42,237 bases of DNA from Acidimicrobiia bacterium (GTDB taxonomy: Bacteria > Acidobacteriota > Vicinamibacteria > Vicinamibacterales > CAVVIG01): positions 64,646 to 106,882 of the forward strand of contig VFZL01000013.1 of assembly GCA_016871175.1 (NCBI GenBank), read 5' to 3'. The position numbers were made by a program, and so were the translations under genes. This document shows, piece after piece, positions 15,026 to 19,396 of this stretch (positions are counted from its first letter, which is position 1; each line of letters opens with the position of its first letter). A model generated the notes under the pieces. The model was not told the origin of the DNA and did not search any database. It was given only the letters and a program-made list of their open reading frames with translations.

Positions 15026-15625
15026 GTGGCCATCGAATATTCCGACGCCAGTCGACACCTACAGGACCGTTTCGACACCCGACGCCTCGCAGATCGGCTC
15101 GTGGAGGTCAAGGTTCACCAGGGGTTCACGGATGCGGACCGAGAGTTCATCCAAGCCCAGGCCATGTTCTTCCTGGCGACCGTCGATGAGCATGGCCAGC
15201 CGACCTGCTCCTGCAAGGGCGGAGATCCCGGGTTGGTGACAATCCTGGATACGGCGACGCTGGCCTTCCCGAACTACGACGGCAATGGCATGTACCTGTC
15301 GATGGGAAACATCAGCCAGACCGGTCGCGTTGGGATCTTGTTTGTCGATTTCGAGCGGCAGCGTCGTCTGCGTGTGGAAGGCGTCGCTGAAATCGTGTTC
15401 GAGCACGATGTGATGAGGAGATACCCCGAGTGCCAGTTCCTGGTGCTGGTCCGAACGACGGCCATTTACCCGACCTGCCCGCGGTACGTGCATCAACACC
15501 AACTTGTTGCCCGCTCGCCGTTCGTGCTGAGAAGCGGCATGAGCACACCGACACCTGAGTGGAAGCGGTCCGGCTGGGCACGCGACGTTTTGGCAGCGCG
15601 CGACCCAGCGACGGATCAAACCTAG
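15026..15625 (+). CDS. Pyridoxamine 5'-phosphate oxidase-like flavin-fold protein
   Basis: The 199-residue protein has the split-barrel flavin-binding fold, with FFLATVDEHGQPTCSCKGG around residues 49-67 and further strands including MYLSMGNISQTGRVGILFVD and RLRVEGVAEIVF. Family members bind FMN, F420 or heme; the substrate cannot be inferred, and it is not a clear biosynthetic PdxH. GTG 15026 was chosen because GGAGGA lies at 15014-15019 with a six-base gap; a GTG at 14999 has no ribosome-binding site. Its TAG stop overlaps an AGGAGG at 15624-15629. Confidence 0.82.
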   Translation: MAIEYSDASRHLQDRFDTRRLADRLVEVKVHQGFTDADREFIQAQAMFFLATVDEHGQPTCSCKGGDPGLVTILDTATLAFPNYDGNGMYLSMGNISQTGRVGILFVDFERQRRLRVEGVAEIVFEHDVMRRYPECQFLVLVRTTAIYPTCPRYVHQHQLVARSPFVLRSGMSTPTPEWKRSGWARDVLAARDPATDQT

Positions 15626-15825
15626 GAGGCGACCACACGATGCGCCGCTCCGCCCTTCCGAGGCGGGGCGGCACGCTGTTCGTCGTCTGGACCAGGTTGG
15701 AGAAGGTTGGAGAAGCGCCTGAAACGATGCTCTGGCGACGCACCATCGACGTGGCGGGCGAGCGGGCGTTGTGGTCCAATGGTCCCGGTGTCAACTCCGC
15801 GACCCTGCGAGCCGCGCCTCAGCGA

Positions 15826-17028
15826 ATGATGAACCGCAGAGAAGTCCTTGTCGCCATGGCGGTTTCGATCGCGGCCAGAGCCCCAGGCCTGACCGCGCAG
15901 ACTGCCCCCGCAGGCGAGCGATCGAGGCATGTGCTCGACCGGTTCGAAGTCTTCCGCGTCCGGGTCAATCATCGAGGCGATTGGGTTCCGCTGCGGACGC
16001 ACACGTCGAGCGGCCTGTCCGGACTTGGCGATTGCTCCCAGAGCGGCGACGACCTCAAGGTGCTGGCCTTGCTCGACCAATACCAACGCGAGCTTCGGGG
16101 CCGAGGCATCTTCTCCGTTGAGGACCTTCGACCATGGGGCCGGTCAGAGACTGCCTCGCACGGCCGAGCTGCGGCCGTGGCGATCAGCGCCATCGAACAA
16201 TCGCTCTGGGATCTTCAAGGGCGCGCGCTGGGCGTTCCGACCTACGAACTCTTCGGCAGCGCGCTGCGCCCAGGCATCCGACAATACGCCAACGTGAATC
16301 GCATGACGACGGATCGCACGCCGGCCGGATTCGCTCGATCGGTCGAGCAGGCGGTGACGGACGGCTTCGATGCGGTCAAGATGGCGCCTTTCGACGGCCT
16401 GGTGCAGAGTCCGACAGCGGAGCGGACACGCCAAATCAGGCTCGCGATCGAGTGCAGCCAGGCTGCACGGCGAGTCCTCGGGCCGTCACGCGATCTTCTC
16501 ATCGACGTCCACAGCCTTCTGACCGTGTCGGAGGGACTCGATATCTTGAAAGAGCTGGAGGCGCTCGAGCTGTACTGGCTGGAGGAGGTCACTGGCGCCG
16601 AGCCCCTCGACGATCTGGCGACCATCAACCGAGCCACAACGATGACGACGGCTGGTGGCGAGGCCCTCGTCGGTATTCAGGCGTTCTCTTGGTACGCGAA
16701 TGCGGGCGCTGTCGACGTATTGATGCCTGACGTCAAATGGTGCGGTGGTCTTCTCGAACTCCGCACGGTCGCGGCGATGGCTGAGGGGATGAACCTGCGG
16801 GTCTCACCGCACGGTCCGGCCAGTCCAGTGGGGAACATCGCCGCAGGACATGCGTGCGTGACGCTGCCGAACTGCGAGATCAATGAGTTCGCGTACGCTG
16901 AGGTGCCGTGGCGAAAGGACCTGGTGGAGCCGCCAGAGACGTTCGACAAGGGACACCTCACGCTGAGCACACGGCCAGGTTTCGGGATCACGCTCAACGA
17001 GAAGATCGTTCGGCAGTTTGCGCGGTGA
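15826..17028 (+). CDS. Enolase-superfamily (mandelate racemase group) enzyme with Tat-like signal
   Basis: The family removes a proton alpha to a carboxylate with Mg2+ assistance, typically as a dehydratase, epimerase or racemase of acid sugars. From the ATG at 15826 the 400-residue protein starts MMNRREVLVAMAV, a twin-arginine-like export signal ending near LTAQ (25). Barrel motifs are KMAPF (K185), metal ligands D227 (LLIDVHS), E253/E254 (YWLEEV) and E279 (GGEA), and H329 in SPHGPASP as candidate base. The substrate is unknown. The frame is open further upstream: ATG 15640 has an AGGAGG 10 bases before it, but would add 62 residues with no family similarity ahead of the Tat motif. Export of such an enzyme is unusual. 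Confidence 0.85.
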   Translation: MMNRREVLVAMAVSIAARAPGLTAQTAPAGERSRHVLDRFEVFRVRVNHRGDWVPLRTHTSSGLSGLGDCSQSGDDLKVLALLDQYQRELRGRGIFSVEDLRPWGRSETASHGRAAAVAISAIEQSLWDLQGRALGVPTYELFGSALRPGIRQYANVNRMTTDRTPAGFARSVEQAVTDGFDAVKMAPFDGLVQSPTAERTRQIRLAIECSQAARRVLGPSRDLLIDVHSLLTVSEGLDILKELEALELYWLEEVTGAEPLDDLATINRATTMTTAGGEALVGIQAFSWYANAGAVDVLMPDVKWCGGLLELRTVAAMAEGMNLRVSPHGPASPVGNIAAGHACVTLPNCEINEFAYAEVPWRKDLVEPPETFDKGHLTLSTRPGFGITLNEKIVRQFAR

Positions 17029-17122: not shown

Positions 17123-18652
17123 GTGAGTGAAGGCAGCAGCGCGACGACCTTGGTGGCAGGCATCTCTGGTCCGCGCCGTCACGGGTGCGTCGCCCTTTAG
17201 GATGGCCACGGCCTTCGCGCTGTCTGCGAGCAGGAACGCGTGACGAGGGCCCGGGGCGCCGGCCTCAATCCGTCCGGGCTTCCGGACGAGGCCCTCGATA
17301 TGCTCCTCGAGCGCACCGGACATGCGCGCGTAGACGTCTCCCGCTTTGTCGCCGCGGGGTTTCAGCCACCGACGCGCTCCTGTTTTTCCGGCGAGATCAT
17401 CGAGCGTCCGCACGCGCACGCGCTCGCCGCATACTTGTCGTCGCCGTTCTCCCACGCCGCGGTTCTGGTGTGCGACCACGGTGCTCCGAGCATCAGCTTG
17501 TGGCGCGGCAGGGGCGCCGACCTCGAACCCATCGCGTCGGCGTGGGATGGTCCAGGGTTCGTCGATCTGTACTCGCGGTGTGCGGAGGTCGTCGGGTTCC
17601 ATGGCGACGGACATACGCAGCGACTTGAAGCGTTGGCGCGACCGTGGCCGGGCTATCGCGACGTCCGCATCGACCGGTTGTTCGCCTGGATCGACGGCCG
17701 GCTCCGGGCGAACGATGGGTGGGAGCGCGTGGTCGACGAGGTCGTGCGCGATGCTTCCTCGGACTCCCCCTGGCAGGCACAGTCGCTCGCGGCCGCCGCC
17801 TTCCAGTCGCGGCTGATCGACCTGGTTCTCGAGCTGATGGCTGATGTGCGCTCGCGTCTCGACGACCCGGTGATCTGCCTTGGCGGGAGCCTGTTCTACC
17901 ACTCGTCGATCAACACCGCGATTCGGCAGTCTCGGCTCTTTGCCGACGTGTTCGTCCCGATCGATCCTGGTGAGGCGGGCCTGGCGGTTGGTGCAGCGCT
18001 TTACGCCCAGCGATCGGTGCCTCGAGACGTGGAGCCCTTCCTCGGTCCTCGCTATCGCGCCGACGAGATCAAAGAAACGCTCGACAACTGCAAGTTGCCC
18101 TACACCTGGGAGTAGGACGAACGAGCGGTCGCGATCGCGGTCGATGCGCTCAAGAAGGGGAGACTGGTTGCGTGGTTTGACGGATCGATGGAGTGGGGCC
18201 CGCGTGCGCTCGGAGCGCGCTGCATCCTGGCCAGCCCGTTCTCACCGTATGTGCTCGAGAATCTGAATCGCTTCCTGAAGCGCCGGGAACCGTGGCGTGG
18301 CTACGCGCTGAGCGGCCTGGTTGAGGCGATGGACACAAGCTTCGCTGGCCGTCCGCAGGCCCGGTTCATGGAATGCGACTACTTGCCGAAGGAACCGAGC
18401 GGTCCGTTTCGCCATGCGATGCCGGCACCGGGAGCGGCGATCCGAGTCCAGGCCGTGGACAGACAGGCACCCTGGCGATTCCGGCGTCTGCTCGAGGCCT
18501 TCGGTGACACCACTGGACATCCATTCCTGGTGAACACGTCATTCAACGGGTTTCACGAGCCCATTGTCTGCAACCCACGCGATGCGGTGCGCGTCTTCTA
18601 CGGCACCGGTGTTGACCTTTTGGTGCTCGAGCAGTTCGTGCTACGAAAGTAG
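17123..18652 (+). pseudogene. NodU/CmcH-type carbamoyltransferase interrupted by two in-frame TAG codons
   Basis: One reading frame carries the whole family sequence from GTG 17123 to the TAA-less end at TAG 18650-18652, but is broken by TAG at 17198-17200 and 18113-18115. Before the first stop: VAGISGPRRHGCVAL. After it: DGHGLRAVCEQERVTRARG, then the Kae1-like domain with PHAHALAAYLSSPFSHAAV, CLGGSLFYHSSINTAI and FVPIDPGEAGLAVGAAL. After the second: the C-terminal domain with VAWFDGSMEWGPRALGARC and PFLVNTSFNGFHEPIVC. The enzyme class O-carbamoylates natural products and sugars using carbamoyl phosphate and ATP. No frameshift is seen in 1.5 kb. The only in-frame ATG after the second stop (18188) is inside the GPRALG motif, so reinitiation would not rescue the domain. 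I read it as recently inactivated. Confidence 0.8.
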
Positions 18653-18775: not shown

Positions 18776-19396
18776 GTGGACCAACACACGCACGAGCGGT
18801 GGATGCGTCTCGCCATCGAGGAGGCGGCGCTGGCGCGCGGGACGACGGGTGACAACCCCTGGGTTGGCTGCGTGATCGTGAGCGCCAGCGGCGAGCTCTT
18901 GGGACGTGGCCACACATTGGGTCCGGGCGAAGACCACGCTGAGGTCGCGGCGGCGCGAGACGCCGCCGCGCGGGGGCATCGTCTGATCGGCGCGTCGCTG
19001 TATTCGACCCTTGAGCCGTGCTCGTTCCACGGACGGACGCCCGCGTGCTCGCGCTCGATCGCGGCTCGCGGCATCGCCAAAGTCGTCATTGGGATGCGCG
19101 ATCCCCACCCGCTGGTTGATGGCGCCGGCGTGGGGATTCTGCTCGACGCCGGTGTCCACGTGATCGAAGGGATCTGTGAGGCCGAGGTCAGGCGCCAGCT
19201 CGGACCGTGGGTCATCGAGCAGCACCCCCATGAACCGCTGCGGCGAGCGCTGAGGTTCCCACAGGAGCAGCGCGTCGAGCAGCTCGCTGAGATCTACGGA
19301 GTGGACCGTCTGTGCGTCGAAGCGTTACTCGCGGAGCACAGGCGTTCGGCGCGCCACGAGATGAGCCACGGCGTGGATCCGAACGACCACGCATGA
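18776..19396 (+). CDS. RibD-type cytidine/pyrimidine deaminase domain protein
   Basis: The 206-residue protein matches the deaminase half of RibD, which deaminates the pyrimidine intermediate of riboflavin synthesis. Zinc site residues are H54-A-E56 and C82/C91 in the PCSFHGRTPAC motif; GDNPWVGCVIV at 26-36 binds substrate in the family. The reductase half is missing: after about residue 150 comes a short, unrelated basic/acidic tail. The GTG start lies six bases after a -10-like box; ATG 18803 is an alternative that would lose only an N-terminal segment. The stop overlaps the next ATG (ATGA, 19393-19396). It may serve riboflavin synthesis with a separate reductase or a modified-nucleotide pathway. 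Confidence 0.8.
   Translation: MDQHTHERWMRLAIEEAALARGTTGDNPWVGCVIVSASGELLGRGHTLGPGEDHAEVAAARDAAARGHRLIGASLYSTLEPCSFHGRTPACSRSIAARGIAKVVIGMRDPHPLVDGAGVGILLDAGVHVIEGICEAEVRRQLGPWVIEQHPHEPLRRALRFPQEQRVEQLAEIYGVDRLCVEALLAEHRRSARHEMSHGVDPNDHA

Follow-up and report, generated by a model that had tools for sequence, protein, structure and literature searches.

The stretch of DNA analysed here (the window, 42,237 nucleotides) covers positions 64646-106882 of contig C13 in a 4.44-Mb draft genome of 85 contigs that is 96.8% complete. On its + strand, at 17123..18652, lies an interrupted frame for a NodU/CmcH-like carbamoyltransferase. Translated from GTG 17123, it comprises 509 codons and a terminator, and its only internal stops are a TAG at codon 26 (17198..17200, + strand), early in the Kae1-like domain, and a TAG at codon 331 (18113..18115, + strand). 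The start is uncertain, as the same frame is open for about 52 more codons upstream of this GTG and the start codon is unproven. The native terminator is itself a TAG (codon 510; 18650..18652, + strand) at the conserved end of the protein, and beyond it there are 36 further codons before TGA 18761.

Both parts of the frame matched Pfam profiles above their cut-offs, Carbam_trans_N at residues 97-293 (39.5 bits) and Carbam_trans_C at residues 341-509 (141.7 bits). Because the first match ends at 293 and the second begins at 341, the second TAG falls between the two domains. The middle open piece (17240..18115, + strand; 291 codons from GTG 17240) carries most of the Kae1-like domain (PF02543), and the piece after the second TAG (18116..18652, + strand) carries the C-terminal domain (PF16861). 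The protein scored 72 bits against the NodU equivalog model NF041651 (NCBIfam), below the score of at least 1000 that this model needs. Aligned with an uninterrupted relative, the frame is continuous over residues 6-509 at 52% identity. This leaves no sign of an indel that would change the frame, and a chance resemblance is excluded. The original prediction of a single frame with two in-frame TAG codons, the second between the domains, and no frameshift was borne out by the translation, the alignment and the borders of the Pfam matches. It had also claimed family sequence throughout, which holds by Pfam for the two matched regions, while the first ~95 residues lie outside the Pfam match and were recognised only through close relatives. 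Judged by its sequence, the frame encodes a homologue of NodU/CmcH-type carbamoyltransferases, broken by TAG codons but not by a frameshift.

Orthologues and catalytic residues

Of 27 genomes searched for the family, 21 had matches, the window genome (G000) among them; within the matches listed, internal stops occurred only in the window copy. G011 had two adjacent carbamoyltransferase matches. Orthologues were aligned from a genome of the same genus (G001), one of the same family (G026) and a Vicinamibacterales MAG (L038); the search within the genus covered two genomes, that of the window and G001. All three orthologues are uninterrupted (loci L003 1498-3162, L006 1354-2994 and L038 6016-7584). 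The G001 protein has 554 codons and is 52% identical to the window frame, with identities of 45-46% for G026 and about 40% for L038. At the first TAG, the aligned residues are Ala (G001), Trp (G026) and Leu (L038), and at the second they are Ser, Ser and Asp, respectively. Thus, these orthologues have neither a TAG nor a conserved residue at either place. The native TAG of the window copy falls at the residue where the G001, G026 and L038 proteins also end. The original prediction had called for an alignment with orthologues from close relatives, and for its idea to be dropped if the upstream and downstream pieces proved always to be separate genes. They are not, since all three orthologues are single continuous genes.

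GdmN and TobZ (PDB 7vyj, 3ven) are class III carbamoyltransferases with the same domain order as the window copy, Kae1-like followed by C-terminal. In its C-terminal part, the window copy also has stretches (among them GPRALG and NTSFN) in common with a canonical carbamoyltransferase of G001. The catalytic His of GdmN is H27, and iron is bound by H133, H137, D156 and D333 (PMC9633730). We mapped these positions through the canonical G001 paralogue. The counterparts of H137 and D156 are kept in the window copy, but Arg is found in the H27 and H133 columns and Glu in the D333 column. The class III set of a catalytic His and four metal ligands is therefore incomplete in this copy, with H27, H133 and D333 replaced. 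The uninterrupted orthologues also differ from GdmN in the H27 column (Arg in G001 and G026, Gln in L038) and in the D333 column (Asn), but keep both ligand histidines and D156. With the counterparts of H27 and D333 replaced, the G001, G026 and L038 orthologues form a divergent carbamoyltransferase group and are perhaps not ordinary carbamoyltransferases. It is conceivable that such divergent copies would act as the non-catalytic partner of a canonical carbamoyltransferase, a hypothetical role.

Genomic context

The neighbours of the window gene, assigned by profile matches, are open frames on the + strand, one for a mandelate-racemase/muconate-lactonising (MR/MLE)-type dehydratase upstream (15559..17028) and one for a RibD-type deaminase-domain protein downstream (18776..19396). 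The carbamoyltransferase is thus an orphan amid unrelated metabolic genes. Across the 4.44-Mb genome, no second match to Carbam_trans_C was found, the window gene holding the only match to PF16861. A search of the same genome for full-length asparagine synthase gave only three partial matches (the best 72.7 bits, covering positions 2-159 of 354).

The surroundings of the orthologues are of another kind. Near the G001 orthologue there is an asparagine synthase (305.9 bits) and a canonical carbamoyltransferase (Pfam matches of 329 and 250 bits), and on the contig of the G026 orthologue there is a second carbamoyltransferase match ~20 kb away, found by the family search alone. Both genomes also have glycosyltransferases and GNAT (Acetyltransf_6) proteins close to the orthologue. 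Judged by these gene families, the surroundings in G001 and G026 are apparent surface-glycan clusters. When relatives of 28 window frames were sought in the carbamoyltransferase neighbourhoods of G001, G026 and L038 and in a 400-kb sample of G001, which together make up a small part of those genomes, only the carbamoyltransferase and one weak, unrelated match were found.

Other interrupted genes and constraint on the frame

The window gene is one of several interrupted genes in its assembly. Candidate stops were sought with a Markov model, which flagged 56 over 941 kb of the window genome and, over 400 kb of G001, 18 (39 and 14, respectively, in an earlier scan); most of them resembled ordinary gene ends with a same-frame gene next. 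In the window genome, 7 of 18 candidates picked by eye lay inside a Pfam match that spans the stop: three TAG (an ABC transporter, a sigma-54 regulator and an isochorismatase-type (nicotinamidase-type) protein), two TGA (a thiolase and a TPR protein) and two TAA (a Lhr-like DEAD-box helicase and an endonuclease IV-like AP endonuclease). In G001, a Pfam match spanned the stop in 0 of 18 candidates, although the two samples were treated differently: the 18 from the window genome were chosen by eye from overlapping lists (56 and 39), and those from G001 were all 18 of the later scan, excluding stops unique to the earlier one.

Single families gave a similar picture. Among 59 ABC_tran matches in the window genome, one had an internal TAG and two domains were split between frames; among 12 kinase matches, one had an internal TAG and one domain was apparently split between frames (G000 C22:66353-67135 and C7:41125-41729). 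No internal stop was found in the 16 short-chain dehydrogenase matches of the window genome, or in the ABC matches listed for G001, G026 and G008. Besides the carbamoyltransferase, interrupted loci in the window genome include L155 9716-10660, L157 2510-3505, L160 15106-16131, L179 1030-2403, L182 18850-19754 and L198 398-1066, some of them with a frameshift or deletion too.

Our count, made by hand and by eye, is 14 genes with 17 nonsense codons (11 TAG, 3 TGA and 3 TAA), the carbamoyltransferase included; a spanning Pfam match confirms 7 of these stops. Half of these genes (7 of 14) carry a second lesion. This is a second stop in the carbamoyltransferase, ABC and TPR genes, an added frameshift in the helicase, endonuclease IV and S9 peptidase genes, and, in the thiolase, an internal deletion beside the stop, seen in direct alignment as gaps of ~55 residues.

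Are these true lesions or errors in the assembly? The main rival to decay is that the gene is intact, and that both TAG codons, together with the other stops and frameshifts, are assembly or consensus base errors arising from low coverage or mixed strains. Consistent with this are the draft state of the assembly (85 contigs) and its several internal stops and split frames, when a like test of the sister-genome sample gave none. Cooley and Wright (2024; PMC11017572) report that internal stops in assemblies are often errors and are linked to coverage, platform and assembler, and this dependence on coverage fits the rival.

The state of the frame also speaks for base errors, as it has no clear relaxation of constraint. 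Tajima tests of the window copy with four outgroups were not significant. A rate test of low power, counting unique changes at codon positions 1 and 2 under two alternative outgroups, gave 105 versus 99 under the first (p 0.36) and 112 versus 91 under the second (p 0.08); within that power, there is no clear sign that the window copy evolves faster. Of the 36 columns that are invariant in the six other aligned proteins, none is changed in the window copy (G001, 2 of 38; G026, 2 of 38). A random substitution in this frame has a 3.1% chance of being nonsense. Two stops should therefore as a rule be accompanied by tens of further changes, which requires a young decay, or else one or both stops may be miscalls.

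The clustering of lesions argues the other way. Three genes, counted by eye, have two nonsense codons each, compared with 0.17 expected by chance (850 genes assumed). A frameshift in three genes and the thiolase deletion lie beside stops, frameshifts having been sought only in genes already broken. The frameshift regions inspected (helicase, endonuclease IV and S9 peptidase) contain no homopolymer longer than 5. The broken genes that we could recognise, a small sample, presumably belong to dispensable families, which also weighs against miscalls. Taken with the orphan context, the clustering of lesions and the lack of long homopolymers in the three inspected regions favour true decay; the absence of any frameshift or indel in 1.5 kb, the absence of clear acceleration and the 0 of 36 invariant columns changed count against it. 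On balance, we regard base errors as a possible but less likely source of the two stops.

Decoding of TAG

Amber decoding is known from pyrrolysine systems and TAG-recoded phages, and an in-frame TAG in a long gene is a feature that the window gene shares with them. The window genome differs from such systems in that TAG is a normal terminator. In a 941-kb sample, 400 long open frames (the longest non-overlapping ones of at least 300 codons, some of which may be antisense) ended in TAG (123), TGA (239) or TAA (38). The original prediction had named tuf, rpmG, nusG, rplK, rplL and rpoC as ending in TAG, which we confirmed, and had judged genome-wide amber recoding unlikely on that account, a view upheld by the stop usage. 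A reassignment of TAG throughout the genome is ruled out by the 123 of 400 frames, the gene's own TAG and the ends of tuf, nusG, rpoC and the others. RF1 is intact; an apparent internal TGA in prfA was an artefact, the stop sitting just before the prfA ATG.

Natural readthrough or suppression confined to some genes, which would yield a full-length protein, was the exciting reading in the original prediction. In its favour, the sequence seems to be under constraint past each stop, and each stop sits in a variable column that seemingly tolerates many residues. However, the gene's own terminator is TAG, and efficient decoding of this codon would lengthen the protein by 36 codons. In addition, RF1 and the genome-wide use of TAG as a terminator, in tuf, nusG and rpoC among others, speak against it. 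The search for a tRNA with a CUA anticodon, which had been proposed as a check, found none among 38 tRNAs called by ARAGORN (37 at the sites of Rfam matches, one inside the window) in this 96.8% complete assembly. ARAGORN did not call a weak tRNA-like match (L153; G000 C58:50-250) that falls short of the Rfam gathering score and whose anticodon is CTT by eye. The best PylRS match in the window genome reached 28.9 bits against a cut-off of 178.15, a cut-off exceeded in 1 of 14 genomes in a control search. The aligned orthologues lack TAG at either site, the two positions are not conserved, and TGA and TAA interruptions are also present in the genome. Readthrough is therefore disfavoured on several counts, and we consider it very improbable. 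We give just as little credence to a milder form, in which near-cognate decoding or an unassembled suppressor tRNA would allow both TAGs to be read at a low level and some full-length protein to be made from interrupted genes. If it were true, the genome would be tolerating a load of stops rather than decaying.

That both interruptions are the same codon is correct as an observation but is a weak pointer to special decoding. From codon usage, the expected TAG share of random nonsense is 56-61% genome-wide and 52-55% in the window frame, over a range of mutation biases, and the chance that two of two stops are TAG is ~0.3. As nonsense mutation under this codon usage yields TAG more often than any other stop, the identical stops carry little weight. 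The 11 TAG among the 17 nonsense codons counted by hand are likewise in line with what mutation should give (with TAG shares of 0.55-0.60, p is 0.29-0.45).

A split enzyme, with the pieces translated separately from GTG 17240 and ATG 18188, would suit the open pieces with possible starts and a second TAG between the domain matches, but is scarcely credible given that the three orthologues are continuous genes, that starting at these codons would cost the protein roughly 39 N-terminal residues and the front of the C-terminal domain, respectively, and that no clear ribosome-binding site was seen by eye in the 25 bases upstream of each.

Discussion

Two stops in a frame whose relatives are uninterrupted, an orphan context and other interrupted genes in the same assembly are what we observe at this locus. 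The reading that best accounts for them, with a probability of roughly 0.6, is that the window gene is a recently broken, nonsense-decayed and dispensable homologue of a carbamoyltransferase, in a genome with many interrupted genes. This was the plain reading in the original prediction, and of those put forward there it has the best support.

What could have led to such decay? We infer that the living organism really carries these stops and that the loss of partners preceded them. Because the partners were not found (there is neither a second carbamoyltransferase C-terminal domain nor a full-length asparagine synthase match) and the neighbours are unrelated metabolic genes, the carbamoyltransferase probably lost its purpose once it was alone, and would then have been free to gather stops. 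Translation would now stop at codon 26, and any restart would give an incomplete protein.

Bacterial pseudogenes in draft genomes (PMC11017572) likewise consist of internal stops in a recognisable gene, occur with other such genes in the same assembly, and are hard to assign to decay or to miscalls without the reads. The window gene is no different in kind from these; its particular traits are the same codon twice and no indel.

Thus, the interrupted carbamoyltransferase is an ordinary broken gene of a known kind, and a false lead is removed: ordinary nonsense mutation, or miscalling, accounts for the apparent pair of amber codons, in a genome that has other interruptions. Two simple checks serve for findings of this sort, namely to look at the gene's own terminator, and to look for the other two stop codons within other genes of the assembly.
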